Assembly: GCA_947627335.1 (NCBI GenBank)
Contig: CANQVQ010000003.1
Coordinates: 1-33,617, forward strand
Direction of reading: 5' to 3'
DNA from: an uncultured Clostridia bacterium
GTDB lineage: Bacteria; Bacillota; Clostridia; Oscillospirales; CAG-382
DNA: 33,617 bases
Positions 9,467 through 30,714 of the stretch are shown here, in pieces (the stretch's first letter is position 1; each line of letters opens with the position of its first letter). A model generated the notes under the pieces. That model did no database searches. It was not told the origin of the DNA and was given only the letters and a program-made list of their open reading frames with translations. Position numbers and translations under genes: made by a program.

Positions 9467-11670
9467 AAAAGTCTGTCACGAAGATCCTTGCGCTTTGCCT
9501 TTGCGTCCTTCTCGCGGTGGGCGGGATCGCCATGACCGCTTTTGCCTTGAACACCGATGAAAATACGACCGAAAAGCAGGCGGACCCCGAACCCGCATCC
9601 GTTTCCGACGATACCGGCGTCTCCAAGGACGAAACCGTGTATGTCCTCGCCGAGGCGGACGGCTCCGTTCGGAAAATCATCGTCAGCGATTGGATCAAGA
9701 ATTCCCTCGGCAATGCCGCGGTGAACGATCGGACCGAACTGACGAATGTGGAAAATGTCAAGGGCGACGAAACCTACACCCTGAACGGCGACGGTCTGCG
9801 CGTATGGGACGCCCAGGGGAACGACATCTACTACCGGGGCGACATCGAAAAGGAACTCCCGGTCGACCTTTCCGTCTCCTACAAGCTGGACGGGAAGCCG
9901 ATTTCGGCGGAAGAACTGGTCGGAAAGAGCGGTCGCGTGACCATTCGGTTCGACTACCGGAACAAGCAGTACGAAACCGTCGAGATCGACGGCAGGCAGG
10001 AGAAGATCTACGTCCCGTTCGCCATGCTGACCGGCGTCCTGCTGGATGACGACGTGTTCACCAACGTGGAGGTGACCAACGGCAAACTGATTAACGACGG
10101 CAGCCGCACCGCCGTGGTCGGGATCGCTTTCCCCGGTTTGCAGGAGAACCTTGCGATTTCCAAAGATAAATTGGAGATCCCCGATTCTGTGGAGATCTCC
10201 GCTGATGTGAGCGATTTCCGGCTTGCGATGACGGTGACGCTCGCGACAAACGAGCTGTTCAGCGAATTGGACGTGGACAGTCTGGACGACGTTTCGGAAC
10301 TCAGCGCCTCCATGGAGGAACTGACGAGCGCCATGGAGCAGCTTTTGGACGGTTCCTCGCAGCTTTATGACGGGCTCGCCACATTGCTTGAAAAGTCCGA
10401 TGAACTGGTGGAAGGGATCGATCGGCTTGCCGCCGGGGCGGAGAGCCTCAAAAACGGGACCGACAGCCTTGACGCGGGAGCGGCGGAACTGCAAGCCGGG
10501 GCGGCACAGCTGCACGAAGGGCTGAACACCCTCGCGTCGAACAACGACGCCCTGAACGGCGGGGCAAAACAGGTATTCGACACGCTGCTCGCCACGGCGA
10601 ACACCCAGCTTGCAGCCGCAGGACTGGACGTCCCGACCCTGACGGTGGAAAACTATGCGCAGGTCCTGGACGGCGTCGCCGCGTCGCTGGACGGGGACGC
10701 CGTGTATGCGCAGGCGCAAAGCCAGGTGACCGCAGCCGTGGAAGCGCAGAAAGATACGATCATGCAGCAGGTCGCGACCGCCGTTCGGGTGGAGGTCGCC
10801 GCACAGGTCACGACCGCCGTCCGGGAGGAAGTGACGGCGCAGGTGACGCAGGTCGTTCGGGAAACCGTGGCGGAACAGGTCGTTCAGGCGGCTCTGCATA
10901 TCGACAAAGCGTCTTATGACGCCGCCGTTGCCGCCGGGCAGGTAGATGCGGAAACACAGGGAAAAATCGAGGCAGTCATTGAGCAACAGATGCAATCCGA
11001 GCAGATACTTCAGCAGATTCAGGCGGGGGTAGACACGCAGATGGCGACCCAACCGATCCAAGATACCGTCACGGCAAAGACCGACGAGCAAATGCAAAGC
11101 GATACCGTCAAACAGACAATCGCGCAGCAGACGGAACTGCAGATGCAGAAGATCATCTCGGAACAAATGGAATCCGACGAGGTGCAGGCGCAGCTTGCCG
11201 CCGCCGCGGAGGGCGCAAAATCGGTCGCCGCGCTCAAAGCCTCTCTGGACAGCTACAACGGATTCTACCTCGGCCTGCAAAGCTATACGTCCGGCGTCGC
11301 CGACGCCGCGGCGGGGGCGGGGACCCTGCAGGACGGAACGGATACCTTGAAAGCCGGCGCTTCCGCGCTTGCCGACGGCGCTTCACAGCTTTACGATGGG
11401 ATCCTTACCCTGAAAAACGGGACGCCGGCTCTGGTGGACGGGATCACCCAACTTCGCGACGGCGCCATGCAGCTTTCCGACGGATTGAAAGAATTTGACG
11501 AGGAAGGCGTCCAAAAGCTGGCGGACGCGGTGAACGGCGACCTCGACGGACTGCTGACAAGGCTCCGTGCGACCAGAGACGTGTCCCTGCGCTATACGAA
11601 TTTTGCAGGCATGGGCGAGGACATGGACGGTCGGGTGAAATTCATTTATCGAACGGATTCCATCGGGTAA
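9463..11670 (+). CDS. Exported LxxG heptad-repeat coiled-coil protein, MMPL partner
   Basis: The 735-residue product starts with a signal peptide (MKKSVTKILALCLCVLLAVGG, cleavage after about residue 29). A globular beta-rich N-terminal domain of about 220 residues follows. Two blocks of heptad-like repeats of the form LxxG (LLDGSSQLYDGL, LAAGAESLKNG, LKAGASALADG) lie at about 290-370 and 620-690, the pattern found in YhgE/Pip-type and other MMPL-associated proteins. Between them is a long Gln/Val-rich helical region of VTAAVEAQ-like repeats, probably a coiled coil. No C-terminal membrane helix is seen, so it may be released or held by the exporter. The ATGA overlap with the MMPL gene indicates fixed stoichiometry. 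I infer a periplasm-like adaptor spanning the cell wall; the biochemical role is not known. Confidence 0.82.
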   Translation: MKKSVTKILALCLCVLLAVGGIAMTAFALNTDENTTEKQADPEPASVSDDTGVSKDETVYVLAEADGSVRKIIVSDWIKNSLGNAAVNDRTELTNVENVKGDETYTLNGDGLRVWDAQGNDIYYRGDIEKELPVDLSVSYKLDGKPISAEELVGKSGRVTIRFDYRNKQYETVEIDGRQEKIYVPFAMLTGVLLDDDVFTNVEVTNGKLINDGSRTAVVGIAFPGLQENLAISKDKLEIPDSVEISADVSDFRLAMTVTLATNELFSELDVDSLDDVSELSASMEELTSAMEQLLDGSSQLYDGLATLLEKSDELVEGIDRLAAGAESLKNGTDSLDAGAAELQAGAAQLHEGLNTLASNNDALNGGAKQVFDTLLATANTQLAAAGLDVPTLTVENYAQVLDGVAASLDGDAVYAQAQSQVTAAVEAQKDTIMQQVATAVRVEVAAQVTTAVREEVTAQVTQVVRETVAEQVVQAALHIDKASYDAAVAAGQVDAETQGKIEAVIEQQMQSEQILQQIQAGVDTQMATQPIQDTVTAKTDEQMQSDTVKQTIAQQTELQMQKIISEQMESDEVQAQLAAAAEGAKSVAALKASLDSYNGFYLGLQSYTSGVADAAAGAGTLQDGTDTLKAGASALADGASQLYDGILTLKNGTPALVDGITQLRDGAMQLSDGLKEFDEEGVQKLADAVNGDLDGLLTRLRATRDVSLRYTNFAGMGEDMDGRVKFIYRTDSIG

Positions 11671-11694: not shown

Positions 11695-12573
11695 ATGGCT
11701 GAAACGTATGTGCTGTATAACCCGATCGCGGGGGGCAACAGGGGATTTGAAAACGCTAAGAAGCTGGAGGCGGTTTTCCCGCAGAAAAACCTGCTTTACC
11801 GCGATATGACCGGCATTTCGGACTACGGCGACTTCTTCGGCTCGATCCGGGCGGACGACGTCGTCATCCTCTGCGGCGGAGACGGGACCCTGAACCGCTT
11901 CATCAACGCTACCGATTCCATGGAGATCGAAAACCCCATCCTGTACTACGCGACCGGGAACGGGAACGATTTCCTGCGGGACCTGGGGCAGACGGCGGAC
12001 GGACCGATCCAAATCAACGACTACATCAAAAATCTGCCTTCCGTCACGGTCAATGGGAAGAAACATCGGTTCCTGAACGGCGTCGGCTACGGGATCGACG
12101 GCTACTGCTGCGAAGTCGGGGACAAAAAACGGACGCAGTCCGACAAGCCGGTCAACTACGCCTCCATCGCTATTCAAGGACTGCTGTACGGGTATAAGCC
12201 GTCTGCGGCGGTCGTCACGGTGGACGGGCAGACCCGCACCTATCAAAAGGTCTGGATCGCACCGACCATGTACGGTCGCTATTACGGCGGCGGCATGATG
12301 CCCGCGCCGGAGCAGAGGCGCGGAAACGCGGAACGCACGGTGTCCGTGGCGGTCATTCACGATTCCGGGAAGCTGCGGACGCTTTGCGTCTTTCCGTCTA
12401 TCTTTCAGGGCAAGCACGTCACCCATACCGCTATCGTCGATGTGCTCAGCGGACATCGGATCACCGTGGAGTTCGACCGCCCCTCCCCTTTGCAGATCGA
12501 CGGCGAAACCGTCCTGAACGTGAAAAAATACGACGTGGAATCGGCGCCCGTCCCGGCGTACGCATTTGGGTGA
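11695..12573 (+). CDS. Diacylglycerol/lipid kinase family protein
   Basis: The 292-residue protein has the DAGK catalytic domain: YNPIAGG at residues 7-13, the nucleotide-binding GGDGTLN motif near 61-67 and the ATGNGNDFLRD motif near 91-101. The C-terminal beta domain typical of DgkB/YegS/BmrU enzymes follows. The family phosphorylates diacylglycerol or related lipids with ATP at the inner membrane face. The start has GGAACGGGGAAC upstream and lies 24 bp after the LxxG gene, so it closes the operon. Its company with an MMPL exporter suggests that the two act on the same lipid pathway. Whether it is the housekeeping diacylglycerol kinase cannot be told. Confidence 0.88.
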   Translation: MAETYVLYNPIAGGNRGFENAKKLEAVFPQKNLLYRDMTGISDYGDFFGSIRADDVVILCGGDGTLNRFINATDSMEIENPILYYATGNGNDFLRDLGQTADGPIQINDYIKNLPSVTVNGKKHRFLNGVGYGIDGYCCEVGDKKRTQSDKPVNYASIAIQGLLYGYKPSAAVVTVDGQTRTYQKVWIAPTMYGRYYGGGMMPAPEQRRGNAERTVSVAVIHDSGKLRTLCVFPSIFQGKHVTHTAIVDVLSGHRITVEFDRPSPLQIDGETVLNVKKYDVESAPVPAYAFG

Positions 12574-12667
12574 GGGCGAAAAAGACCGACACGCACCCGA
12601 ATCCGTCCGTTTTTCGTAATTTTGAAACAAATTATTGGAAAAACCTACAAAAATTATCCCGAAGCGC

Positions 12668-12697
12668 TTGACAAACATCGGCGCATTGTGCTATAAT
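12668..12697 (+). promoter_or_regulatory. Promoter of the zinc-ribbon membrane protein gene
   Basis: TTGACA (12668-12673) and TATAAT (12692-12697) are separated by 18 bp. The last three bases of the -10 box are also the first bases of a 14-bp inverted repeat. Confidence 0.85.
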
Positions 12698-12762
12698 ACG
12701 ACAGACAGGAACATTTGGGGGGATGCTGTCTGTCGTATTTTGATTTTGCCCCAAACCCCAAA
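12695..12762 (+). promoter_or_regulatory. Inverted repeat and pairable leader at the transcription start
   Basis: AATACGACAGACAG (12695-12708) and CTGTCTGTCGTATT (12726-12739) are perfect 14-bp arms around a 17-base loop. The loop holds TTTGGGG (12714-12720), which can pair with either of two adjoining CCCCAAA copies at 12749-12755 and 12756-12762. The left arm begins inside the -10 box. The element may be an operator, a terminator of the upstream operon (a weak T-rich tail follows), or a leader RNA switch. A further GCGAA/TTCGC stem lies nearer the start codon. Confidence 0.55.
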
Positions 12763-12889
12763 GGCGTGTTGAAGTCCGAAAAATTCCAATTCCGGATCCT
12801 TTGCTTTTTTCAGATTTGTTCGGGGAAAGCGAAAGAACCGGCGATCATTCGCAGCTTGGGATTTCTGAGATAAAAAGGAGGAATACGTG

Positions 12890-14038
12890 ATGTATTGTAC
12901 AAATTGCGGGACGCAAAATGCGGACGACGCTTCGTTCTGCCGGAATTGCGGATCGCCGCTCAAAAAAAGCCAGACCGGCTATCAGCAGCCGTATCAGGCG
13001 CCGCGGTACCGGCAGGCGCCGTATTCGCAGCGACCCGCATCGTCCGCGGGAACGGCGGTTTTGCGGAATGTTTGCTCTTCTCCCGAGGCGCTCGCGGCGA
13101 TCATCGCCTATACGGCGGCGGCCTTTTTCAGTTTTTTGAACGCGGTCTTCAACTCGTACGGCATCCTCAGCAACTTCTATCAAATTGCGGATCTGCTGGA
13201 TATGAGGAGTTTTTACCGTACTTTAAGCGGTTCCTTCGTTGCGCTGTCGATCATCGCGATGATCCCAACCGTTTTGATTGCCGTCGGCTTATGGCTCACC
13301 TACACCTCCGCGGCGAGCAAGACGAGCGCCGGGGTGAAAACGATCGGGCTGACGATCATAAAAGTGGTCCTGATCGTCAACCTCTCGATCATCGGCGGTC
13401 TTCTCGCGATCGTTGAGATCGTTGAGATTGTCGCCTTGTCTACAGTATCCCAAGTCAGCCACGGTTATTTCGGTTCCGCAATGATCGGTTCGCTCGTCGG
13501 CGTGATGATCGTCATTGCGATCGCCCTGGCATTGGTCATTCTTTTCTATGTGAAAGCGATCAAGACCGTCAACACGATCCGGCAGACGGCGCAAAGCGGG
13601 GTCCCATCGGATAACGTGTCCGTCTTTGTGGCGGTCATGTCGTTCATCATGGGCGGCTTTACGGTGATTTCGATCATCGGAAGTTATGGAGCGCTCGCCG
13701 TGCTTTCCAACCTGTGTTCCGCAACGGCATACATTACATTCGGTGTGTTTCTGCTCTCCTACCGTGGAAAAATGCGGACCGCGGTATACGGCGCCGGATA
13801 CGCGAATTTCCGGCAGCAGCCGTATACGTCGCAGACGCCTTACGGTACGCCGAACGACTTCACGGTGCAGGACACCACGAATTACGGGCAGTCCGCGGAT
13901 GCGGAGCAGGAGACGGCGGAGACAGGCGGGAACGCCCCGCAGCAGCTCGTCACCTGTTCGAGATGCGGTGGGCAGTACAACGTGTCCCAGGGACAGGAAT
14001 GCAGATGCCCCTACTGCGGCAACGTGGAAAACGAGTAA
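12890..14038 (+). CDS. Membrane protein with zinc ribbons at both ends
   Basis: The 382-residue protein starts with a zinc ribbon, MYCTNCGTQN...FCRNCGSPL, followed by a Gln/Tyr/Pro-rich linker (about 28-55). About six hydrophobic segments lie between roughly 65 and 300. A second zinc ribbon, CSRCGGQYN...CRCPYCGN, is at the very C-terminus. Both ribbons should be cytoplasmic, which requires an even number of helices. The ATG at 12890 is preferred; a GTG one codon earlier is closer to the AAAGGAGG site. It is monocistronic between its own promoter and a strong terminator, with a leader of about 185 nt. Such proteins are common in clostridia and unassigned; the ribbons suggest binding to protein or nucleic acid rather than catalysis. 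Confidence 0.8.
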   Translation: MYCTNCGTQNADDASFCRNCGSPLKKSQTGYQQPYQAPRYRQAPYSQRPASSAGTAVLRNVCSSPEALAAIIAYTAAAFFSFLNAVFNSYGILSNFYQIADLLDMRSFYRTLSGSFVALSIIAMIPTVLIAVGLWLTYTSAASKTSAGVKTIGLTIIKVVLIVNLSIIGGLLAIVEIVEIVALSTVSQVSHGYFGSAMIGSLVGVMIVIAIALALVILFYVKAIKTVNTIRQTAQSGVPSDNVSVFVAVMSFIMGGFTVISIIGSYGALAVLSNLCSATAYITFGVFLLSYRGKMRTAVYGAGYANFRQQPYTSQTPYGTPNDFTVQDTTNYGQSADAEQETAETGGNAPQQLVTCSRCGGQYNVSQGQECRCPYCGNVENE

Positions 14039-14213: not shown

Positions 14214-14263
14214 TTGACATCGTGTCAGAACCGTGCTATACTGACAATGCTGACACGGCGTCA
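14214..14263 (+). promoter_or_regulatory. Promoter and operators of the TetR/CMD-cupin operon
   Basis: TTGACA (14214-14219) and TATACT (14237-14242) are 17 bp apart. TGACAtcgTGTCA (14215-14227) is a palindrome overlapping the -35 box. A near copy, TGACAcggCGTCA (14251-14263), covers the start of the transcript, and a lone TGACA (14242-14246) touches the -10 box. This is the layout expected for autorepression by the TetR protein encoded next. Confidence 0.75.
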
Positions 14264-14303
14264 AAAAGTATACCGTTTCAAGCGGAAAGGGAGGGGACCG
14301 CCT

Positions 14304-16398: not shown

Positions 16399-16758
16399 TC
16401 ACGGATGGATCTCGGCGTCGTCAGCCGTGTATGCACCGAGCGAACCCGCTTTCACCTGGATACACACATAGCTGATCTCGGAATCGTCGGACGCAAAGAA
16501 TTGCCTTTTTGCCGCAGGCGCGATCCGAAGCCAGTCGCCCGCATGAAGCGCTACGGTTTCCCCGTCGATGACGGCTTTCCCTTGCCCGGAGAGGATCGCG
16601 TAGATCTCTTCGTTCTGCTTATGGGAATGGACAAACGGAACGCTTGCGCCGGCGGGAAGATGATTCACGCTGACCTCCGCCCCCGTAAGCGACAGCTTGT
16701 CGTGCAGTTCCGTCCGTGCTTCCTGCCCGACGGTTACTTTGCTGAAATTTTTCATCAT
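16399..16758 (-). CDS. Single-domain cupin protein
   Basis: The 119-residue protein is a small cupin barrel. Motif 1, FVHSHKQNEEIYAILSGQG (about residues 42-60), has the two His and Glu metal ligands; motif 2 (HAGDWLRIAP, about 71-80) carries a further His. Such cupins bind a metal and may be dioxygenases, isomerases or simple sensors. Two adjoining ATG codons (16758 and 16755) follow GGAGGGA. It has its own promoter with a palindromic operator and lies just downstream of the Rrf2 gene on the same strand, so it is the probable main target of that regulator. No substrate can be named. Confidence 0.85.
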   Translation of the reverse strand: MMKNFSKVTVGQEARTELHDKLSLTGAEVSVNHLPAGASVPFVHSHKQNEEIYAILSGQGKAVIDGETVALHAGDWLRIAPAAKRQFFASDDSEISYVCIQVKAGSLGAYTADDAEIHP

Positions 16759-16778
16759 TTGGGTCCCTCCGATAAAAA

Positions 16779-16846
16779 TATTGTTGTAATCTTTTCGATT
16801 ACAACAATAGTATAGCACATTCCGAATGTAATGTCAATAGTTACAT
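16779..16846 (-). promoter_or_regulatory. Promoter and operators of the cupin gene
   Basis: On the minus strand TTGACA (16832-16837) and TATACT (16809-16814) are 17 bp apart. Directly after the -10 box, covering the transcription start, lies a perfect palindrome with 13-bp arms and a five-base centre (16779-16809, core TTGTAATC-N5-GATTACAA). A second inverted repeat, ATGTAA-N9-TTACAT (16826-16846), brackets the -35 box. Repression by the neighbouring Rrf2 protein is the simplest reading. Confidence 0.75.
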
Positions 16847-16889: not shown

Positions 16890-17327
16890 TCACGGCTCCG
16901 CGATACATTTTTCCGTATCCCGCTTGATGTCCTCCAAGGTGATGGACGCAAGCTCTTTTTCCATCGCATTCTGCACCCGCAGCAGCTTATCGTCCAGGAT
17001 CCTGTGGATATTGCGTCCGACCGGGCATTGCTCGTTTGGATTTTCGTGGAAGTGAAACAGCGTTCCGTTCTCCACACACGCGACCGCATGATAAATGTCC
17101 AGGAGGGTGATCTCCCGCAACGGCTTCGCGACGGAAACGCCGCCTGTGCCGCGTGCCACGGCGACAAGCCCCGCCGCCTTTAGTTGGGAAAGGATCTTGC
17201 GAATGACGACGGGATTCACGTTCGTGCTTCCCGCGAGGAATTCGCTTGTGACCTTATACGCGTCCTGAAAGGTGTCGATACAGGCAAAAATGTGGACGGC
17301 CAAGGTGAATCTGCTTGAGATCTGCAT
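16890..17327 (-). CDS. Rrf2-family transcriptional regulator
   Basis: The 145-residue protein has the Rrf2 winged helix: MQISSRFTLAVHIFACI at the start, the recognition segment NPVVIRKILSQLKAAGLV (about 38-55), and the wing GTGGVSVAKP. The C-terminal part has Cys residues (ACVENG near 83, NEQCPVG near 98) but not the three-Cys iron-sulfur set of IscR. A redox- or thiol-sensing role is possible only by analogy. The ribosome binding site is weak (AGGAG lies 18 bases away), and no in-frame earlier start exists before the promoter. ATTGTTGTA, half of the cupin operator, overlaps its own promoter, so autoregulation is likely. Confidence 0.9.
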   Translation of the reverse strand: MQISSRFTLAVHIFACIDTFQDAYKVTSEFLAGSTNVNPVVIRKILSQLKAAGLVAVARGTGGVSVAKPLREITLLDIYHAVACVENGTLFHFHENPNEQCPVGRNIHRILDDKLLRVQNAMEKELASITLEDIKRDTEKCIAEP

Positions 17328-20239: not shown

Positions 20240-20623
20240 ATGGAAGAAAAAAAGGAAACCTTCACCTACACCTATTCCGCAAAGGAGCAGGAGGAGATCA
20301 AGGCGATTCGGGACAAATACGCCCCGCAGACGGGCGGGGAGACCCCGATGGAGCGGCTTCGCCGTCTGGACAGGAGCGCCGCAAGGGGCGCGACCGTCGT
20401 CTCGCTGATCGTCGGGATCGTCAGCGCCCTGCTTTTGGGCGTGGGGATGTGCTGTACGCTGCTACCCGGCTGGGAATCGTATTTCGTTCTCGGGATCGCG
20501 GTCGGCGCGGTCGGTTTGGCCGGTGCGGTCGCGACGTACCCGCTTTACAAGGGTATGGTCAAGCGGAAACGGGCGGAACTCGCGCCGGAGGTTTTGCGCC
20601 TGTCGGGTGAATTGATGAAGTGA
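20240..20623 (+). CDS. Small membrane protein with two helices
   Basis: The 127-residue protein has a charged cytoplasmic N-terminus (about 1-52, rich in Glu, Lys and Arg), two membrane helices (about 54-76 and 82-102) and a basic C-terminal tail. The start at 20240 follows AAAGGAG. It is preceded by the same type of box as the two-component operon and is followed by a terminator, so it is probably a regulon member transcribed by itself. No function is known. Confidence 0.75.
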   Translation: MEEKKETFTYTYSAKEQEEIKAIRDKYAPQTGGETPMERLRRLDRSAARGATVVSLIVGIVSALLLGVGMCCTLLPGWESYFVLGIAVGAVGLAGAVATYPLYKGMVKRKRAELAPEVLRLSGELMK

Positions 20624-20635
20624 TTTTCGCGAAAA

Positions 20636-20675
20636 ATTCCTTCCTGTCGGTGTTTTGGCAGGAAGGGATTTTTTT
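20636..20675. terminator. Bidirectional terminator between convergent genes
   Basis: ATTCCTTCCTG / CAGGAAGGGAT make an 11-bp stem with one wobble pair. Seven T follow on the plus strand and AATTTTT on the minus strand, so it serves both the small membrane gene and the sirtuin gene. Confidence 0.85.
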
Positions 20676-20681
20676 GTGCGG

Positions 20682-21551
20682 TCAGCGCATACGCTCCAGG
20701 ACGGCGGAAATGTCCGCGTCGATGCAGACGGAACGGTCGCGGATCTCCGGCGGGCAGACCGCGTCGCCGAAGTTGACGCAGGCGTAGGTCGCCGCCCGGT
20801 TCTGCGCGGTCATGCGCCAGAACGGGTATTTGATGATGCCCGGCGTGTTGTACCCGACGCCGAGCTCCCAAAACAGGATCCGTCCGTTTTTTCGCGTCCG
20901 CAGAAAGTTCTCGTACCGCTCCGCCGCACGGTGCCAGCCTTCGTCCTCGACGAATTTGTCGTCGGAACGGAGGTTCATGGTCAGGGGTCTGCCGCAGTGC
21001 GGGCAAAAGGGGAGGAGTTCGGTCGGGACCCGCATCTCCTTTTGCCGTTCCACCATCTGCCGGATCGTATCCTCGTTCGCAAAGGTCTCCTGACAGCAGG
21101 GTTCGGAACATTGGAACAGACCGTAGTCCCCCTGCGTATAGAACAGGCGTTTCTTGTCGAATCCCGCCTTTTGGAAGCAGTGGTCCACGTTCGTGGTGAT
21201 CGCGAAGTAGTCCTTGTCCCCGACCAGCGCAAGCAGGGTCTCGTACACCGGCTTCGGCGCGTCCAGATAGCGGTTGACAAAAATATACCGGCTCCAATAC
21301 GCCCAGAATTCCTCCGGCGAGGAATACGGGTAAAACCCGCCCGCATACATATCGGAAAAACCGTATTTGTCGGCAAAATCCGAGAAATACCGCCGGAACC
21401 GCTCCCCGGCATAGGTGAATCCCGCCGAGGCGGAAAGTCCCGCTCCCGCGCCGACGACTACGGCGTCGGCTTCCCGCAGGGCGACCCGCAGGCGGTCAAG
21501 AGGTTCCGAGAAGGTTTCGGTAGAGCTGTTCGTCCCGTTGCGTGAAAACAT
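20682..21551 (-). CDS. Macrodomain-linked sirtuin (SirTM-type, class M)
   Basis: The 289-residue protein has the sirtuin NAD-binding fold: GAGAGLSASAGF (about 34-45), TTNVDHCFQKAG, and a zinc-ribbon part with C-SEPCC and CPHCGRPL. The usual catalytic His is replaced by Gln in YTQGDYG. That replacement is characteristic of the SirTM class, which acts as protein ADP-ribosyltransferase rather than deacetylase. The gene lies directly after a macrodomain gene and overlaps it by 56 bp, the genetic link that names the class. The start at 21551 follows GAGGTG. Described SirTM operons also carry a lipoylated GcvH-like protein and a lipoate ligase; neither is visible nearby. The target protein is therefore unknown. 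Confidence 0.88.
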   Translation of the reverse strand: MFSRNGTNSSTETFSEPLDRLRVALREADAVVVGAGAGLSASAGFTYAGERFRRYFSDFADKYGFSDMYAGGFYPYSSPEEFWAYWSRYIFVNRYLDAPKPVYETLLALVGDKDYFAITTNVDHCFQKAGFDKKRLFYTQGDYGLFQCSEPCCQETFANEDTIRQMVERQKEMRVPTELLPFCPHCGRPLTMNLRSDDKFVEDEGWHRAAERYENFLRTRKNGRILFWELGVGYNTPGIIKYPFWRMTAQNRAATYACVNFGDAVCPPEIRDRSVCIDADISAVLERMR

Positions 21552-22272
21552 TGAAGATCACCTCGATTCCGCCGCCCGTTTCGGCTCTGTACGCGTCCAC
21601 CGTCCGCACGGCGATCTCCGCCGCTTTTTCGCCCGGGAATGCGAATACGCCGGTCGAAATGCAGCAGAACGCGACGCTTTTCAGCCTGTTTTGCACCGCC
21701 AGCTCCAGACAGGACCGATAACAGGAGGCGAGCAGTTCGCAATGCCGTTCCGTGAGGGGTCCCCGCACGATCGGTCCGACCGTGTGCAGCACATACCGGC
21801 AGGGCAGGTTGAAGGCGGGCGTGATCTTCGCCCCGCCCGGTTCCTCCGCGTGACCCTGCTTTTCCATGATTTCGGCGCAGGCGAGCCGAAGCTGCACGCC
21901 GGCGTAGGTGTGGATGCAGTTGTCGATGCAGTCGTGGCAGGGGACGTAGCAGCCGGTCATGCCGCTGTTGGCGGCGTTGACGATGGCGTCGCAGGCGAGC
22001 GTCGTGATGTCGCCCCGCCATAGGTAGATCCCGTCCCGGATCGGGTCCAGGTCGGCGAGCGTTGTGACGCCTTTTCGCCGAATCTCCTCCCGCAGGTAAG
22101 CGTCCTGCACGTCCAGAAATGCTTCCGACGCGGGAGCGGGCGGGCGGAGGTTCAAAAGGGCGCGAAGCAGCAGTTTCTGTCCCCGCTCGTCCGACGGGAC
22201 CCCGACGGTTTCCTGCGGTCGCTCCCGCAAGAGCGCCGTCAGCAGGTATGCGCGTCTGTCTTGCTGTGTCAT
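21496..22272 (-). CDS. Zinc-type macrodomain ADP-ribosylhydrolase
   Basis: The 258-residue protein has an N-terminal helical extension of about 80 residues and then a macrodomain: GDITTLACDAIVNAANSGM, CYVPCHDCIDNCIH and STGVFAFP. The Cys/His cluster after the AANS motif marks the zinc-containing macrodomains found with SirTM enzymes, which remove ADP-ribose from proteins. The start at 22272 follows AAAGGAG; the track's 323-residue form is too long. It overlaps the sirtuin gene by 56 bp, so writer and eraser would be made together. No promoter is evident in the 101 bp after the oxidoreductase gene, so all three may form one transcript. Confidence 0.9.
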   Translation of the reverse strand: MTQQDRRAYLLTALLRERPQETVGVPSDERGQKLLLRALLNLRPPAPASEAFLDVQDAYLREEIRRKGVTTLADLDPIRDGIYLWRGDITTLACDAIVNAANSGMTGCYVPCHDCIDNCIHTYAGVQLRLACAEIMEKQGHAEEPGGAKITPAFNLPCRYVLHTVGPIVRGPLTERHCELLASCYRSCLELAVQNRLKSVAFCCISTGVFAFPGEKAAEIAVRTVDAYRAETGGGIEVIFNVFTQRDEQLYRNLLGTS

Positions 22273-22373
22273 CTTCCGCTCCTTTCCGAATCGCGGCGCA
22301 AATAAGGAGAGCGGCGCGGAAAGCATTCCCGCTCCCCGTGCCGCCCGTTCTCTTTTTGCCGTGAAAACCGCTT

Positions 22374-23438
22374 TTACAGCCGGACTTCCCGACCCTCTGC
22401 GGCGGATTGATAGATCGCGTCGAGGATCCGCATGAGCACCACGCCGTCCTCGGCGGGGGAGATGCACGGAATGCCGTCGCGGACGCAGTCCACGAAATGC
22501 TTGATCTCCCGGTTGAACAGCCCGTTGAAGTCCAGCGCCGTGTTGCCGGCAGGCTTGATGTCGACGAACATCTTGTTCATATCCGAGAAGAATTCGATCT
22601 GCGGATCGATGCGGGCGCCTGCTTTGGTGCCGAACAGTTCGATGTTGCCGGTGTCCTGCTTGATGTTGAGGTTGAAGGAGGCTTCGACGTTGAGCGTCAT
22701 GCCGTTGTCAAAGCGGATCAGCGCCGTCGCGAAATCTTCGACCGTATACTTGAAATCGATGCCGAGGTTGTTCTGGGAGACCCAGCCCTTCTGGTTGTCG
22801 GCACGGTTGTCGCCGAGGTTGTCGTAGGTCACGCCGTAGACCGAGACCGGCTGCGGGCAGCCCGCGAGGTAGCGGCAAAGGTCGATGACGTGCACGCCCA
22901 GATCGATCAGCGGACCGCCGCCGGAATAGCGTTTGTCGCCGAACCAACCGCCGGGGCATCCGCTGCGGCGGAGGTAGGTCGCCTTGGCGAAGTAGATGTC
23001 GCCCACGGTGCCTGCCTGAATGAAGTTGCGCAGGATGTCCGCGTCGTTGCCGAACCGACGCACGAAGCCGATCATCAGCAGCTTGCCGTTGCGTTCGGCG
23101 GCTTCCTTCATGGCGAGCGCCTGCGAAGCGTTCATCGCCATCGGTTTTTCGCACAGGACGTTGCAGCCCGCGTTCAGCGCGGCGATGGTCGCTTCGGCGT
23201 GCGCGGCGTTCCAGGTGCAGACGGACACCGCGTCGAGTTCCTCTTTGGCGAGCATTTCGTTGTAGTCCTTGTAGGCACGGGGGAACCCGTTGACCTTCGC
23301 GTAGTTTTGCGCCTTCTGCTCGTCGATGTCGCACACCGCGACCAGCTCCACCTTGTCCGGCAGCGCCTTGTACCCGCCGAGGTGCGAATGGCTGATGTTC
23401 CCTGCGCCGATGATGCCGACGCGTAGCTTTCTGTCCAT
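22374..23438 (-). CDS. Gfo/Idh/MocA-family NAD(P)-dependent oxidoreductase
   Basis: The 354-residue enzyme has an N-terminal Rossmann fold (VGIIGAGNISHSH at 7-19, then VAVCDID) and the family's EKPMA motif near residue 96. The C-terminal half is the alpha/beta substrate domain. The motif DLGVHVIDLCRYLAG is also typical and includes the catalytic His region. Members oxidise or reduce sugars, inositols and related polyols. The start at 23438 is fixed by AAGGAAGC and by the promoter just upstream; the track's longer start lies before the promoter. It may be co-transcribed with the macrodomain and sirtuin genes. The substrate is unknown. Confidence 0.92.
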   Translation of the reverse strand: MDRKLRVGIIGAGNISHSHLGGYKALPDKVELVAVCDIDEQKAQNYAKVNGFPRAYKDYNEMLAKEELDAVSVCTWNAAHAEATIAALNAGCNVLCEKPMAMNASQALAMKEAAERNGKLLMIGFVRRFGNDADILRNFIQAGTVGDIYFAKATYLRRSGCPGGWFGDKRYSGGGPLIDLGVHVIDLCRYLAGCPQPVSVYGVTYDNLGDNRADNQKGWVSQNNLGIDFKYTVEDFATALIRFDNGMTLNVEASFNLNIKQDTGNIELFGTKAGARIDPQIEFFSDMNKMFVDIKPAGNTALDFNGLFNREIKHFVDCVRDGIPCISPAEDGVVLMRILDAIYQSAAEGREVRL

Positions 23439-23472
23439 GATCTTGCTTCCTTTCTCTTGTGCGTCTGACAAC

Positions 23473-23501
23473 ATTTTACACCCGCTTTCCCGGTTTGTCA
23501 A
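23473..23501 (-). promoter_or_regulatory. Promoter of the oxidoreductase/macrodomain/sirtuin genes
   Basis: TTGACA (23496-23501) and TAAAAT (23473-23478) are 17 bp apart on the minus strand, in the gap after the HAD gene. Confidence 0.75.
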
Positions 23502-23546
23502 GGGCAAAACACGGGGACGGGGAAAAATTTTGCGACAGGACCCGTT

Positions 23547-24257
23547 TCAGGTTCGGCGGACCTCCACGCCCAGAAGCGGCGGGATCTCCCACAGGCTGTG
23601 CAGTTCGCGGTCCACGCGCACGTCCTCCCGACGCGCCTGCCCCTGCGGATTGTACCACCAGCAGACGAGTCCCGCATTGTTCCCGCCTCGCATATCGCTC
23701 GTCAGCGAATCGCCGATGATCGCCGTCCGCGCCGGGTCGTAGCCGGTCTGCGCCCGCACCGAGCGGAAAAACGCTTCCGTCGGCTTCTGCGCCCCGACGA
23801 CCTCCGAGATAAACACCCCGTCCGCCAGCCTGTCCAGACCGCATTTCCGCAGTTTCGCCTCCTGCGCTTCGATACTGCCGTTGGTGACGAGGTATTGCCG
23901 GAAATGCTTTCCCAGTTCGCGGAACAGCGTCAGCGAGTCCTCCTGCGGGAAAGCCGATTCCCCGAGCGCCTGCTGATACCGGCGGTTGAACGCGTCGTAA
24001 TCGGTATAGCGAATGCCGTAACGGGCGAAAAATTCCACGAGCCGACCGGAACGGACCTCCCGCTGGGTGACCTCCCCCCGCTCGAACTTCTCCCACCATT
24101 CTCGGTTGATGGCGGAATAGACCGCGAGCATCTCCGCGTCCAGCTCCACGCCGATCTCCCGACAGCACTTCTCCATCCCGTACTTCTCCGCCGCCGAAAA
24201 ATCCAGCAGCGTCCCGTCCACGTCCCAAAGCAGGGTCGTGATGCTTCCGCCCGTCAT
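23547..24257 (-). CDS. HAD phosphatase, YjjG/YfnB-like
   Basis: The 236-residue enzyme shows all HAD motifs: WDVDGTLLDF (motif I, D12 and D14), VTNGS (II), GAQKPTEAFF with the conserved Lys (III), and IIGDSLTSDM (IV), with a helical cap between I and II. The wording of motifs II to IV matches the YjjG group, which removes phosphate from (non-canonical) pyrimidine nucleoside monophosphates. The start at 24257 follows GGGAGGAA. No own promoter is visible in the 78 bp after tRNA-Pro, so some expression may come from read-through of the tRNA terminator. Confidence 0.88.
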   Translation of the reverse strand: MTGGSITTLLWDVDGTLLDFSAAEKYGMEKCCREIGVELDAEMLAVYSAINREWWEKFERGEVTQREVRSGRLVEFFARYGIRYTDYDAFNRRYQQALGESAFPQEDSLTLFRELGKHFRQYLVTNGSIEAQEAKLRKCGLDRLADGVFISEVVGAQKPTEAFFRSVRAQTGYDPARTAIIGDSLTSDMRGGNNAGLVCWWYNPQGQARREDVRVDRELHSLWEIPPLLGVEVRRT

Positions 24258-24284
24258 ATTTTTTCCTCCCGTCCTTTTTTACGG

Positions 24285-24323
24285 AAAAAGGCAAATCGAA
24301 CGAGAGCCGTCCGAATTGCCTTT
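24285..24323 (-). terminator. Terminator after tRNA-Pro
   Basis: On the minus strand AAAGGCAA pairs with TTGCCTTT, with partial inner pairing, and runs into TTTTT. It lies between the tRNA and the HAD gene. Confidence 0.65.
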
Positions 24324-24335
24324 CCCTGTCCGCAA

Positions 24336-24411
24336 TGGTCTGAGTGACACGATTTGAACGTGCGGCCTCTACCACCCCAAGGTAGCGCGCTACCAACTGC
24401 GCCACACCCAG
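24336..24411 (-). tRNA. tRNA-Pro (anticodon GGG)
   Basis: The minus strand folds as a 76-base cloverleaf: acceptor CTGGGTG/CACTCAG (one wobble), D stem GCGC/GCGC, anticodon stem CTACC/GGTAG with loop TTGGGGT, T arm GCACG-TTCAAAT-CGTGT, discriminator A and an encoded CCA. The anticodon is GGG. C1-G72 and G37 are as expected for proline tRNAs. Confidence 0.95.
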
Positions 24412-24432
24412 ATACCCATTGGGAACGGGAGT

Positions 24433-24461
24433 ATTATAGCACGAATCGGCTCGCCTGTCAA
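24433..24461 (-). promoter_or_regulatory. Promoter of tRNA-Pro
   Basis: TTGACA (24456-24461) and TATAAT (24433-24438) are exactly 17 bp apart on the minus strand, a full consensus promoter. Confidence 0.92.
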
Positions 24462-24492
24462 GTCCTTTTTCGGCTTTTTCCGCCGCAACCGG

Positions 24493-24521
24493 TTGACTTT
24501 TTTCGTTTCGTATGGTATACT
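24493..24521 (+). promoter_or_regulatory. Promoter of the GIY-YIG gene
   Basis: TTGACT (24493-24498) and TATACT (24516-24521) are 17 bp apart. It diverges from the tRNA-Pro promoter with about 30 bp between the two -35 boxes. Confidence 0.8.
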
Positions 24522-24579
24522 GATACCGTTCAGGGGCGTTGCCGCCCCGGCAAACCTTTTTGATTGGGGGTTTTTAGAA

Positions 24580-25401
24580 ATGCCGTTCGGGAAGACCATA
24601 TCTTTGTTCCTTATCGACGGTGATCCGAATAAACGTTGGGTGTGTGAGTTATCCAACTGGAACGGAAAAGCCTATAAACTTCCCCGTATCTCCGTCAAAA
24701 ACTGCGACGACCGAGAGGATCTGTCCGCCTGCGGGGTGTATTTCCTGTTTGGTTGGGATGATTCCGATAAAAAAGGGATCGTATACATCGGAGAGGCGGA
24801 GGACGTTCTTTCACGCCTGAAGCAGCACGACGCGCCCAATGGAAAGGATTTTTGGAACGAGTGCATCGTTTTCATCAGCAATCGTCTCAATAAAGCGCAC
24901 ATTAAGTATTTGGAGCGTCGTTGCTATTTGTTGGCGAAAGCTGCCGGACGATATACCGTGGAAAACTCTACCGTTCCTGCAGACGCGTCACTGAACGAAC
25001 GGGAACAGGCGGAAATGGACGAATTCCTCTATAATCTTCGCATGATCAGCAATGTCCTTGGACACAAGGTGCTCGAACCGCTCATTGACCATGTGAAAAC
25101 GAATGCGGCGGAGGAAAAAAGCGAATTGCTTGCCATTTCCACGGCGCGGGGCGCTTGTGCAAAAGGCATGATGACCGGCGACGGATTTGTGGTCCTGAAA
25201 GGGTCCCGTATTGCCGAATCGGAAACGAAGTCCTGCAAGAAACACGTTTCCGCCTTGCGAAAAAAACTGATGCAGGAGGGAAAGATTCAGGATTGGGTTT
25301 TTACGGAGGATTATGTTTTCAGCAGTCCGTCCGCTGCTGCGGGCGTCGTTGAGGGAATGAGCGCGAATGGTCTGACTGAGTGGAAAAAGAAGTCGGATTG
25401 A
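24580..25401 (+). CDS. GIY-YIG nuclease-family protein with DUF4357
   Basis: The 273-residue protein has an N-terminal GIY-YIG domain (about residues 45-150): GVYFLFG for the first motif, VYIGEAEDVLSRLKQH for the second with the catalytic-type Arg and His, and the Glu in YLERRCYLL. The C-terminus is DUF4357 (GDGFVVLKGS ... SSPSAAAGVVEGMSANGLTEW). This pairing is widespread but its role is not known; restriction, repair and mobile-element links have been suggested. The start at 24580 is supported by the promoter; the ribosome binding site (GGGGG) is poor. The gene is more AT-rich than its neighbours and sits alone between two tRNA genes, which suggests acquisition. Confidence 0.9.
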   Translation: MPFGKTISLFLIDGDPNKRWVCELSNWNGKAYKLPRISVKNCDDREDLSACGVYFLFGWDDSDKKGIVYIGEAEDVLSRLKQHDAPNGKDFWNECIVFISNRLNKAHIKYLERRCYLLAKAAGRYTVENSTVPADASLNEREQAEMDEFLYNLRMISNVLGHKVLEPLIDHVKTNAAEEKSELLAISTARGACAKGMMTGDGFVVLKGSRIAESETKSCKKHVSALRKKLMQEGKIQDWVFTEDYVFSSPSAAAGVVEGMSANGLTEWKKKSD

Positions 25402-25438
25402 ACTTTCCGAACGTCCCGGAATATTTATGCATTCCTAT

Positions 25439-25521
25439 GCGGGCGTGGCGGAATTGGCAGACGCGCCGGATTTAGGATCCGGTGGGCAACCTTGCGGGTT
25501 CGACCCCCGCCGCCCGTACCA
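25439..25521 (+). tRNA. tRNA-Leu (anticodon UAG)
   Basis: Cloverleaf of 83 bases: acceptor GCGGGCG/CGCCCGT, anticodon stem CCGGA/TCCGG with loop TTTAGGA (anticodon TAG), short variable arm TGGGCAACCTT, T arm GCGGG-TTCGACC-CCCGC, discriminator A and encoded CCA. The first acceptor pair is G1-U72, unusual for Leu tRNAs, which normally have G-C. A possible weak promoter (TTGAAC, then ATATTT) overlaps the end of the GIY-YIG gene. Confidence 0.95.
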
Positions 25522-25523
25522 CG

Positions 25524-25560
25524 TCGCGGCAAGCCCTTTTGGCTTGCCGCGATTTGCTTT
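25524..25560 (+). terminator. Terminator after tRNA-Leu(UAG)
   Basis: TCGCGGCAAGCC and its exact complement form a 12-bp stem with a five-base loop, followed by TTTGCTTT. Confidence 0.8.
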
Positions 25561-25640
25561 CAAATCACGATTTCCGCTTTTGCGGAGGAATCCCCATACA
25601 TAACCGGCGCCGACATCCATTTTCAACAGGAGGAAGTCCG

Positions 25641-28184
25641 ATGAACACGGAAAAGAACAGACCCGACGAGCCGCGACCCGTCCCCGACCGCATTCTCGTA
25701 CGCGGCGGACGCGTGCACAACCTCAAAAACATAAACGTCGACGTCCCGCTGCACAAAATCGTCGGCATCGCGGGCGTATCCGGCTCCGGCAAGTCCTCGC
25801 TCGCCCTCGGGATCCTGTACGCGGAGGGGTCGCGGCGGTACCTCGAATCCCTCTCGACCTATACGCGACGGCGCATGACGCAGGCGGAAAAGGCGCAGGT
25901 GGACGAGGTGCTGTACGTCCCGGCGGCGCTCGCGCTGCGCCAGCGTCCCGGCGTACCCGGGATCCGAAGCACCTTCGGGACCGGCACGGAGCTTCTCAAC
26001 AGCCTGCGGCTGCTGTTTTCCAGACTTGCAAGCCACCGCTGCCCGAACGGACACGGCGTGCCGCCCTCCCTGAACGTGGCGGCGGGTCTGCCGCTGGTCT
26101 GCCCGGTGTGCGGCGAGACCTTCTTCGCGCCGGGGGCGGAGGAGCTCGCGTTCAACAGCCAGGGCGCGTGCAGGACCTGCGACGGCACGGGCGTCGTGCG
26201 GACCGTGGACGAATCGACGCTGGTGCCGGACGAATCCCTGACCATCGACGAGGGCGCGGTCGCGCCGTGGCAGACGCTGATGTGGTCGCTGATGAAGGAC
26301 ATCGCCCGGGAAATGGGCGTGCGCACCGACGTGCCGTTCCGGGAGTTGACCGCGAAGGAGCGGGACATCGTGTTCCACGGTCCGGCGGTCAAAAAGAACA
26401 TCATCTACCAGAACAAGACGAGCGGCGCCGCCGGGGACATGGATTTCACCTATTTCAACGCCACCTACACGGTCGAAAACGCCCTCTCGAAGGTCAAGGA
26501 CGAAAAGGGTATGAAGCGGGTCGAAAAATTCCTGCGGCAGGACGTCTGCCCGGACTGCGGCGGGACGCGGCTGAGCGAAGCGGCGCGAGCGCCGAAACTG
26601 CGGGGGATCTCCCTCGCGGACGCCTGCAAAATGACGCTTGCCGAGCTGACCGACTGGGTGAACGGCGTCCCGGATTCCCTGCCCGCGGAGATGCGCCCGA
26701 TGGCGGAAAGCATCTGCGATTCCTTCCGTTCCGCATCGAAGCGCCTGACCGACCTCGGGCTTTCCTACCTCACGCTCGACCGTGCCGCCTCGACGCTCTC
26801 CACCGGCGAACGGCAGCGGATGCAGCTTGCCCGTGCGGTGCGAAACCGCACGACGGGCGTCCTCTACGTCCTCGACGAACCGTCCATCGGTCTGCACCCC
26901 TCCAACCTCGAAGGGCTGACCGGCGTGATGCGGGACCTGCTCGCGGACGGCAACACGGTCGTGCTCGTGGACCACGACGTGCAGGTGCTCGCCGAGGCGG
27001 ACTGGCTCATTGAACTGGGACCGGGCGCCGGGGCGGACGGCGGGACGGTCCTCGCGCAGGGTCCGCTCGCGGAGGTCGTCGGCGATCCGCGTTCCCGCAT
27101 CGGCGGATTCCTGGCGGGGAAGTCGTCGGTCCGCGTCGGTTCTCCCGTCGGGCGGGAGAGCCTGTTCGCGCACGGGCGGATCCACCTGTCCACGTCCGCG
27201 ATCCACACGGTCAAACCGCTGGAGGCGGACTTCCCGAAGGGGCGGCTGATCGCGGTGACGGGCGTTTCCGGCTCGGGAAAGACCACGCTGATCCTGGAAA
27301 GTCTGGTTCCCGCGTTGGAAGCGTCCGTGCGGGGCAGACCTTTGCCGAAGCACGTCAGATCGGTCTCCGCCGACGGCATTTCGCAGGTCAAACTGATCGA
27401 CGCGACGCCGATCGGGGTCAACGTGCGTTCCACGGTCGCGACCTACGCCGACGTCCACGACGAGCTGCGCAAGGTGTACGCGAAAACGCCGGACGCGAAG
27501 GCGCACGGACGGAAAGCCGGGGACTTCTCCTACAACACCGGCGCACTGCGCTGTCCGACCTGCGACGGCACGGGCAGCATCGATCTGGACGTGCAGTTCC
27601 TGCCGGACGTGGAGATCCCCTGCCCGGACTGCGGCGGCTCGCGCTACGCGAAGGAAGCGAGCCTGATCCGGCGGATCCCGCGCCATGGCGGGACCCCCTG
27701 CTCGCTGCCGGAACTGATGGACAAGAGCGTGGACGAGGCGCTGCGGTGTTGCGAGGACCTGCCGTTGGTCTCCAAACGGCTGCGCGTACTGCGGGACCTC
27801 GGGCTTGGATACCTGACGCTCGGCGAGGGGACGCCGGGGCTTTCGGGCGGCGAAGCGCAACGGCTCAAGCTCGCCGGTGAACTGGGAAAAGGGCAGGCGG
27901 ACACGGTGTTCGTGTTCGACGAACCGACCATCGGTCTGCATCCGCTGGACGTGGAGGTGCTGCTGCGCGTCTTTTCGACGCTGATCGCGTCCGGCGCGAC
28001 CGTCGTCGTCATCGAGCACGACCTGGACGTGATCCGCAACGCGGACTACGTCATCGACATGGGACCGGGCGGCGGCGCGGAGGGCGGCGAGATCGTCGCC
28101 TGCGGCACGCCGGAGGAACTCTGCGCCTGCGAACGCAGCAAGACCGGGTTTTACCTGAAAAAATACCTCTCGTCCGGGCGTTGA
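25641..28184 (+). CDS. UvrA2-type ABC-ATPase (UvrA paralogue without UvrB-binding domain)
   Basis: The 847-residue protein has two ABC modules as in UvrA: Walker A GVSGSGKSS (K51) and GVSGSGKTT, signatures LSTGERQRMQLA and LSGGEAQRLKLA, Walker B VLDEPSIGLHP and VFDEPTIGLHP. Zinc modules are present (CPVCGETFF...CRTCDGTG; CPTCDGTG...CPDCGGSR). Between the first ATPase lobe and the first zinc module there are only about 25 residues where UvrA has the UvrB-binding domain of roughly 120. This is the hallmark of class II UvrA (UvrA2/DrrC), linked to drug and DNA-damage tolerance rather than core excision repair. The first signature is LSTGE instead of LSGGE. The start at 25641 follows AGGAGGAA. 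No promoter was identified in the 80 bp after the tRNA terminator. Confidence 0.92.
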   Translation: MNTEKNRPDEPRPVPDRILVRGGRVHNLKNINVDVPLHKIVGIAGVSGSGKSSLALGILYAEGSRRYLESLSTYTRRRMTQAEKAQVDEVLYVPAALALRQRPGVPGIRSTFGTGTELLNSLRLLFSRLASHRCPNGHGVPPSLNVAAGLPLVCPVCGETFFAPGAEELAFNSQGACRTCDGTGVVRTVDESTLVPDESLTIDEGAVAPWQTLMWSLMKDIAREMGVRTDVPFRELTAKERDIVFHGPAVKKNIIYQNKTSGAAGDMDFTYFNATYTVENALSKVKDEKGMKRVEKFLRQDVCPDCGGTRLSEAARAPKLRGISLADACKMTLAELTDWVNGVPDSLPAEMRPMAESICDSFRSASKRLTDLGLSYLTLDRAASTLSTGERQRMQLARAVRNRTTGVLYVLDEPSIGLHPSNLEGLTGVMRDLLADGNTVVLVDHDVQVLAEADWLIELGPGAGADGGTVLAQGPLAEVVGDPRSRIGGFLAGKSSVRVGSPVGRESLFAHGRIHLSTSAIHTVKPLEADFPKGRLIAVTGVSGSGKTTLILESLVPALEASVRGRPLPKHVRSVSADGISQVKLIDATPIGVNVRSTVATYADVHDELRKVYAKTPDAKAHGRKAGDFSYNTGALRCPTCDGTGSIDLDVQFLPDVEIPCPDCGGSRYAKEASLIRRIPRHGGTPCSLPELMDKSVDEALRCCEDLPLVSKRLRVLRDLGLGYLTLGEGTPGLSGGEAQRLKLAGELGKGQADTVFVFDEPTIGLHPLDVEVLLRVFSTLIASGATVVVIEHDLDVIRNADYVIDMGPGGGAEGGEIVACGTPEELCACERSKTGFYLKKYLSSGR

Positions 28185-28197
28185 GGCGGTTTTCCCC

Positions 28198-28226
28198 TTG
28201 ACATCGCCACGCGGACGGCGTATACT
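28198..28226 (+). promoter_or_regulatory. Promoter of the aldo/keto reductase gene
   Basis: TTGACA (28198-28203) and TATACT (28221-28226) are 17 bp apart, beginning 13 bp after the UvrA2 stop. Confidence 0.85.
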
Positions 28227-28253
28227 GGTTTTCGGAAAGGAGACGTGCGCACC

Positions 28254-29417
28254 ATGCTCTATCGACCCGACCGAAACGGCGAACCGATCTCCCAGCTCGG
28301 TTACGGCTGTATGCGGTTCACGAAAAAAGGGACCTCCATCGACTACGAAAAGGCGGAAAGGGAGGTCCTGCTCGCCATCGAACAGGGCGTCAACTACTTT
28401 GACACCGCCTACATCTACCCCGGCAGCGAGGAATGCCTCGGTCGGATCCTCGGCGAAAACGGGTGCCGCGACAAGGTGCGGATCGCGACCAAGCTCCCGC
28501 AATACCTGATCCGCTCGGGGGAGGCGGTCGAAAAGACCTTCCGCGAGGAGCTTTCCCGCCTGTGCACCGACCGGATCGACTACTATCTGATGCATATGTT
28601 CACCGATTTCGCCGAATGGGAGCGCCTGCGTGCGATCGGCATCGAGGATTGGATCGCCCGGAAGAAGGCGGAGGGGGCGGTGCGGAACATCGGATTTTCC
28701 TATCACGGCGACACCGCCATGTTCCTGCGTCTGCTGGACGCTTACGACTGGGATTTCTGCCAGATCCAGTACAACTACCTCGACGAGCACACCCAAGCCG
28801 GGCGGAAGGGACTGCAGGCGGCGTCGGCGAAGGGGATCCCGGTCATCGTTATGGAGCCCCTGCGCGGGGGCAAACTGGTCAACCTGCCGGAGAAGGCGAA
28901 GGAGGCGCTCGACGGCGCTTCGCCCGCCGAACTCGGTCTGCGCTGGCTGTGGGACCAGCCGGAAGTCACCTGCGTGCTGTCCGGCATGAATTCCGAGGAG
29001 ATGGTCCGCGAGAACATCCGCGTCGCGTCCGTTTCGTCGCCGGGGTGCTTCACGGAGGAAGATCGGGCGGTCGTCGAGAAGATCAAATCCGTCATTCGCG
29101 AGCGGGAGAAGGTCGGCTGCACCGGCTGTCGGTACTGTATGCCCTGCCCCAAGGGCGTGGACATCCCGGGCAATTTCTACTATTACAACCTGATGTACAT
29201 GGAGAAAAAGTCCTCCGCACGGTTGGAATTCGCCCAGAATTTAGGCATCCGCAAGGAGCCGGGCTTCGCGTCGCAGTGCGTCGGGTGCGGTCAGTGCGAG
29301 CGGCACTGCCCCCAGCATTTGCCGATCCGCGAAAAGCTCCGGGAAGCCGACCGCGCCCTGCGCCCGCTGCCCTATCGGCTCGGCATTCGCGCCGCACGGA
29401 AGATCATCCTTCGCTGA
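28254..29417 (+). CDS. Aldo/keto reductase with C-terminal [4Fe-4S] ferredoxin-like domain
   Basis: The 387-residue enzyme has an AKR barrel in residues about 1-275 (YGCMRF near 19, FDTAYIYPGSEECLG with the catalytic Asp/Tyr near 50, KLPQYL with Lys near 82, MHMF with the His near 115). The C-terminal part has two Cys clusters, CTGCRYCMPCPKG and CVGCGQCERHCP, for iron-sulfur clusters. Such AKR-ferredoxin proteins are typical of clostridia; most have no known substrate, and the clusters suggest electron transfer beyond NADPH. The ATG at 28254 is chosen over the GTG at 28245 because GGAAAGGAG is too close to the latter. Confidence 0.93.
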   Translation: MLYRPDRNGEPISQLGYGCMRFTKKGTSIDYEKAEREVLLAIEQGVNYFDTAYIYPGSEECLGRILGENGCRDKVRIATKLPQYLIRSGEAVEKTFREELSRLCTDRIDYYLMHMFTDFAEWERLRAIGIEDWIARKKAEGAVRNIGFSYHGDTAMFLRLLDAYDWDFCQIQYNYLDEHTQAGRKGLQAASAKGIPVIVMEPLRGGKLVNLPEKAKEALDGASPAELGLRWLWDQPEVTCVLSGMNSEEMVRENIRVASVSSPGCFTEEDRAVVEKIKSVIREREKVGCTGCRYCMPCPKGVDIPGNFYYYNLMYMEKKSSARLEFAQNLGIRKEPGFASQCVGCGQCERHCPQHLPIREKLREADRALRPLPYRLGIRAARKIILR

Positions 29418-29469
29418 ACGTTTTCGTCTTGCAATTCTGTCAAAATTTTCCTTTTAAGGAGGACATTTT

Positions 29470-29889
29470 ATGAATCCAATCGTTTCGGGTATGGGGTTCC
29501 ACCACGTCGCGCTGCGCGCAAGGTCGTTCGACGAGAGCGTCCGTTTCTACGAAGCCATCGGCTGCAAGGTCAGGATCGCGTGGGGGAGCGGCGAAAACCG
29601 TGCCGCCATGATCGACCTCGGCGACGGCGGCTGCGTCGAGCTGTTCAGCGGCGGCGCGGAAGCGGCGACCGAGTCCGACGTGCGGTACGGGGAATGGCTG
29701 CACCTCGCCGTGACCTGCGACGACCCGGACGCGGCGTTCGCGGCGGCGGTGGACGCGGGCGCGAAGGTCAAGTACGCGCCCTACGACGTGGACCTTTCGT
29801 CCGACCCGCCCTTGCCGTTGCGGATCGCCTTCGTGTACGGTCCGAACGGCGAGGTCATCGAGTTTTTCCACGTCCGGAAAAAAGAATAG
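29470..29889 (+). CDS. VOC-superfamily (glyoxalase-like) protein
   Basis: The 139-residue protein has two beta-alpha-beta-beta-beta modules: GFHHVALRARSFDESVRFYEAIGCK starts the first (metal-type His near 12), and GEWLHLAVTCDDPDAAFAAAVDAGAK the second. Glu in GGCVELFSGG and in GEVIEFFHV would complete a metal site. The family includes glyoxalase I, dioxygenases and drug-binding proteins; the reaction cannot be fixed here. The start follows AAGGAGGAC. A weak promoter (TTGCAA at 29429, TTTTAA 17 bp on) may exist; otherwise it is co-transcribed with the reductase 52 bp upstream. Confidence 0.88.
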   Translation: MNPIVSGMGFHHVALRARSFDESVRFYEAIGCKVRIAWGSGENRAAMIDLGDGGCVELFSGGAEAATESDVRYGEWLHLAVTCDDPDAAFAAAVDAGAKVKYAPYDVDLSSDPPLPLRIAFVYGPNGEVIEFFHVRKKE

Positions 29890-29891
29890 AA

Positions 29892-29924: not shown

Positions 29925-29945
29925 ACGCCGCTTATCGACGGCAAG

Positions 29946-30712: not shown

Positions 30713-30714
30713 CC

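Follow-up and report, generated by a model that had tools for sequence, protein, structure and literature searches.

Why should a promoter carry, beginning inside its own -10 box, a perfect inverted repeat whose outer bases lie upstream of the RNA which that promoter is expected to make? The question is raised by a single locus in the window, by which we mean the whole stretch of 33,617 nucleotides analysed here, from an uncultured Clostridia bacterium of the order Oscillospirales (CAG-382). A sequence-only reading of the window had suggested that the locus could encode an undescribed leader RNA, an operator, or both. The results of the current analysis lead us to favour a different explanation, in which the repeat acts on RNA arriving from upstream, and brought to our attention a related and conserved element at the ylxM-ffh promoter.

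A perfect inverted repeat overlaps a consensus promoter

The promoter consists of the -35 hexamer TTGACA (12668-12673, + strand) and the -10 hexamer TATAAT (12692-12697, + strand), which are separated by 18 nt, are accompanied by TG ahead of the -10 box and agree with the consensus at 12 of 12 positions. Transcription is expected to start 6-10 nt past a -10 box, and from this distance the start zone is predicted at 12703-12707 (+ strand). The first arm of the repeat, AATACGACAGACAG (12695-12708, + strand), shares the bases AAT with the -10 box, such that promoter and hairpin overlap; it contains the predicted start zone and begins 8-9 nt ahead of the expected start. All 14 of its bases are complementary to the second arm, CTGTCTGTCGTATT (12726-12739, + strand), and the two arms are separated by a 17-nt loop (12709-12725, + strand). 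The loop carries TTTGGGG (12714-12720, + strand), two adjacent copies of CCCCAAA follow at 12749-12755 and 12756-12762 (+ strand), and the T-rich stretch TTTTGATTTT (12738-12747, + strand) forms an imperfect terminator tail at the end of the hairpin. The repeat sits 122 nt past the stop codon of a co-directional yegS/diacylglycerol-kinase-like gene (11695-12573, + strand; Pfam PF19279 and PF00781), which closes a co-directional run opened by an MMPL-family gene. Downstream of the repeat, a ribosome-binding site, AGGAGG (12876-12881, + strand), precedes the gene for a zinc-ribbon (PF13240) membrane protein (12890-14038, + strand), which begins at ATG 12890 or at GTG 12887. The arms beginning inside the -10 box, the TTTGGGG and CCCCAAA motifs and a leader of about 185 nt ahead of a zinc-ribbon membrane protein gene had all been described in the sequence-only reading, and our results agree with that description.

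A 14-bp repeat at this promoter is beyond chance, as no perfect repeat longer than 12 bp appeared in 1000 dinucleotide shuffles of positions 12600-12890. Background counts for the genome were taken from a sample of 20 stretches; in 433 kb, perfect repeats whose arms measure exactly 14 bp and whose loop spans 10-50 nt occurred twice, counting the promoter repeat and leaving aside a 27-bp repeat at the end of a contig, and the other was an ordinary hairpin flanked by A and T. The 7-nt match between TTTGGGG and CCCCAAA is not exceptional and is common by chance, since complementarity of at least 7 nt between loop and downstream sequence arose in 637 of 2000 shuffles (32%) and at 155 of 3000 positions drawn at random from the window (5%). 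The fold of the whole leader gave a z-score of -1.0, that is, a structure which is not unusual. As a separate observation, locus L162 contains another repeat, GCAAAGGAGGTATTCTTACAAATGAACCTCCTTTGC, in two identical copies at 9735-9770 and 10154-10189, 419 bp apart, with AGGAGGT in the arm.

The repeat is confined to one genome

Among 23 congeners, none carries a good homologue of the zinc-ribbon gene, and its homologues in other genera of the same family are 28-43% identical. The arms and the TTTGGGG/CCCCAAA pair were both absent from all the available leaders of these homologues (L033-L039). Comparison of the leader DNA with 149 relatives returned only matches of chance length, and the repeat pattern was not found in 148 relatives, save for an unrelated tight hairpin in one of them (G141). 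The whole inverted repeat had no counterpart in viral contigs; when shorter arms and a free spacer were allowed, 27 stretches with other loops were recovered from these contigs and rejected as unrelated by their sequences. No match was found in the plasmid search, and the promoter with its arm, searched in the organism’s own genome, gave mismatched sites only. In the Rfam search of the window, tRNAs alone exceeded the gathering score, and at a relaxed threshold the matches were weak, eukaryotic and attributable to chance. A literature search on zinc-ribbon proteins and leader RNAs found nothing. A tRNA-like gene was also observed elsewhere in the genome (L142; G000:C130:3181-3809), with a consensus promoter and a 5' leader, ACCCCTGT, complementary to ACAGGGGT, with which the tRNA region opens.

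The closest congeners do not have the repeat because the region around it is variable, lower in G+C and missing there. In the closest of them (G023), the match to the window, at about 93% identity and co-linear, runs only from 20.6 kb on (20.6-33.2 kb), and on this evidence we rejected mis-binning of the contig. Positions 1-20600 are missing in G023 and have a lower G+C and divergent tetranucleotides compared to positions 20600-33617; the left part of the window may be a variable region or may reflect a chimeric join near 20.6 kb. The DNA of the yegS-like gene is 82% identical to a gene in another genus (G036), and the similarity stops near its 3' end, at 12557. The repeat is real, non-random and confined to one genome.

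Predicted folding depends on the 5' end of the RNA

The full leader was folded by partition function with varied 5' ends. When the RNA began at 12700 or earlier, the hairpin formed with a pairing probability of 0.92-1.00; with starts at 12703-12707 this probability did not exceed 0.16, and the loop paired instead with the second CCCCAAA copy (12756-12762) at a probability of 0.63-0.78. RNAs starting at 12701-12702 still formed mostly the hairpin in the full leader, and therefore the start site matters. Folded by itself (12695-12770), the hairpin has a 14-bp stem and a minimum free energy of -24.9 kcal/mol. Because the repeat begins upstream of the expected start, RNA started at the promoter would not contain the whole stem. 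A competition between the hairpin and a loop-downstream pairing or pseudoknot had been envisaged from the sequence; such a competition is real in silico, but its outcome is set by the start of the RNA and does not constitute a switch inside one leader.

A proposed terminator within a promoter

We propose, with a probability of roughly 40%, that the repeat is a terminator-promoter overlap, which stops RNA coming from the upstream gene and spares RNA started inside it. Polymerase arriving from the MMPL/yegS-like operon would transcribe both full arms, and the nascent read-through RNA would fold into the 14-bp hairpin followed by UUUUGAUUUU, leading to a pause or to termination. Such termination would insulate the zinc-ribbon gene from the upstream operon. 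RNA started at the promoter would instead begin inside the first arm without the outer 8-12 nt, would form the hairpin poorly and would pass, and the G-run of its loop could then pair with the downstream CCCCAAA. A role of the CCCCAAA copies as an antiterminator is ruled out, because in both RNAs polymerase has already passed the T stretch at 12738-12747 when it reaches them. Were the repeat relevant to promoter-started RNA alone, its 8-9 perfectly matched positions upstream of +1 would call for a separate explanation.

A scan of the + strand from 12573, where the yegS-like gene stops, to 12890 detected no other terminator-like site, whereas in several relatives (L148, L149, L151, L156) the yegS homologue has an ordinary terminator-like hairpin within about 130 nt. 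These results fit a hairpin aimed at RNA of the yegS-like operon. The recurrence of this layout in the same genome, at clpC/ylxM-ffh (see below), also speaks for the overlap. The main doubt about the overlap is its weak strength as a terminator. Its best d score, the formula of which is reportedly that of d'Aubenton-Carafa, is 0.44 and lies at the threshold, with ordinary terminators in the same window scoring 18-39; a loop of 17 nt is long, and GA interrupts the T tract. The distance of 122 nt from the upstream stop codon and the absence of the repeat from all relatives also count against this reading. Terminator-promoter overlaps are a described kind of junction. For instance, at tufB-secE and at other ribosomal and rpo junctions in Salmonella, an upstream terminator-like hairpin and the next co-directional promoter occupy the same bases, as they do here (PMC7055797). 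Three features set the present case apart from the Salmonella overlaps: the predicted start falls within the first arm, the hairpin has the sequence of a weak terminator, and the junction shows no conservation.

Alternative explanations

The main rival is a DNA operator, in which a dimeric or tetrameric regulator would bind both arms across the -10 box and the start and block RNA polymerase; we regard this as possible, on the doubtful side. The perfect dyad does reach into the -10 box and upstream of the predicted start, the 31 bp between the arm centres correspond to about three helical turns, and the sequence of the loop would be irrelevant to such binding. This much of the sequence-only proposal of an operator stands; on the other hand, a second copy of the site was not found in the genome, half-sites occur in the window at chance level, no matching known regulator was found, and the dyads in the promoter of the neighbouring TetR-family gene (TGACATCGTGTCA, 14214 region) are built differently. 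Operators of the CIRCE/HrcA type are inverted repeats over the transcript start that can function at the DNA or the RNA level. The repeat shares with them its position across the start and the possibility of acting at either level, but differs in arm sequence and spacer and is present here in single copy. The PurR boxes of B. subtilis are 14-bp inverted boxes with a 16-17-bp spacer and a central CGAA (PMC8789054), and the 14+17+14 layout of the repeat is theirs in both arm length and spacer length. Unlike PurR boxes, the arms hold CGAC/GTCG and not a CGAA/TTCG core, there is no central CGAA in AT-rich surroundings, and the repeat is not located at purine genes. Nor was a full PurR found in the genome (82% complete), where the sole match to TIGR01743 is a piece of 124 positions scoring 47.6 bits against a cut-off of 258.7. 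The PurR box reading was therefore rejected.

Other sites of a regulatory appearance were seen in the window. The promoter of the TetR-family gene (14214-14275) has one dyad, TGACATCGTGTCA, on the -35 box and another, TGACACGGCGTCA, after the -10 box, and autoregulation of this gene is probable. A palindrome, TATTGTTGTAATCTTTTCGATTACAACAATA (16779-16809), lies upstream of a cupin gene (16399-16764, - strand) that adjoins the gene for an Rrf2-family regulator (16890-17327, - strand), and is likely to be a regulator binding site.

A neutral and recent origin of the repeat, by a template switch or similar event and with no selected function, is in our judgement rather unlikely. It would fit the occurrence in one genome only, the perfect arms without decay and the variability of the region among congeners, and one such repeat per genome is near the chance level given by the two repeats with 14-bp arms and long loop in 433 kb. 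It is harder to reconcile with the exact register of the repeat on a 12/12 consensus promoter, and with the finding that, of the 62 promoters in the genome that match the consensus fully, 3 have perfect repeats of at least 11 bp starting between -10 and +10, compared to none in 200 shuffled sets.

We consider improbable the original proposal that the zinc-ribbon gene has a regulatory leader RNA or a pseudoknot. In RNA started at the promoter, the UUUGGGG/CCCCAAA pairing has favourable energetics, but the chance frequency of 7-nt complementarity, a leader z-score of just -1.0, the lack of an Rfam match and the position of CCCCAAA behind the T stretch all speak against such a role. An undescribed and conserved leader RNA is unsupported, because every available homologous leader in the family, distant as these are, is without the arms and the TTTGGGG/CCCCAAA pair, and because the closest congeners are without the region. 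Finally, an ompA-like hairpin stabilising the mRNA at its 5' terminus is highly improbable, for although two promoters elsewhere in the genome (L208, G000:C44) have 11-bp hairpins 8-9 nt past the -10 box, here the stem begins in the -10 box and a normal start leaves a 5' hairpin of 5-7 bp that is outcompeted. The L208 promoters (G000:C44:4000-8000, - strand) are adjacent and near-consensus, one of them preceding the gene for a secreted Asp/Ser/Ala-repeat protein, and their hairpins, which have no T tail, are candidate 5' stabilisers.

A conserved hairpin at the ylxM-ffh promoter

One of the three consensus promoters with a repeat sits between clpC and ylxM-ffh (names given from the translations, and for YlxM also from PF04297), at 3670-3770 of L207 (G000:C103, - strand). 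The element has the form TTGACA-N17/18-TATAAT-N(2-6)-CTGTAAAG-N7-CTTTACAG and is found in about 30 genomes, from this family and from outside it (also L209-L233, L235, L238, L239 and L241), where it adjoins ylxM and is generally single per genome. Its loop measures 7 nt in 26 of 26 cases. The invariance of the core follows from how the sites were selected; even so, when they were retrieved through the protein, nearly every leader had the same core. The three outer pairs, located between the -10 box and the expected start, covary among 30 promoters, the first occurring as CG, TA, GC or AT and the third as AT, TA, TG, GC, GT or CG. Many copies have a T-rich tail, and the -35 box shares bases with the stop codon of clpC. 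We found no description of this element in the literature and no Rfam family for it.

That pairing is kept upstream of the local start points to selection acting on RNA that arrives from upstream, or else on the dyad symmetry, by the same logic as for the window repeat. The invariant core suggests recognition of its sequence, for example by the helix-turn-helix protein YlxM, and the element is a candidate YlxM operator and/or clpC terminator. It shares with the window repeat a perfect inverted repeat that begins directly after a consensus -10 box, a predicted start in the first arm and, in many copies, a T-rich tail; it differs in its arms, in a loop of 7 nt instead of 17 nt, and in being conserved and covarying across about 30 genomes instead of occurring in one. 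The ylxM-ffh element is a far stronger example than the window repeat. It is conceivable, although we think it unlikely, that the family uses hairpins gated by the start site generally, in which case the ylxM-ffh element would be the ancient, conserved example and the window repeat a recent one. In such gating, only read-through RNA would form the terminator, and locally started RNA would escape and refold.

If the overlap reading is true, one palindrome separates RNA that reads through from RNA started locally, according to the 5' end, which would provide a compact form of operon insulation. Taken alone, the window repeat is an isolated case, and its value lies mainly in having led to the ylxM-ffh promoter hairpin. 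The ylxM-ffh operon is that of the signal recognition particle GTPase, and the presence of the hairpin across the family lets the idea be tested by comparison.
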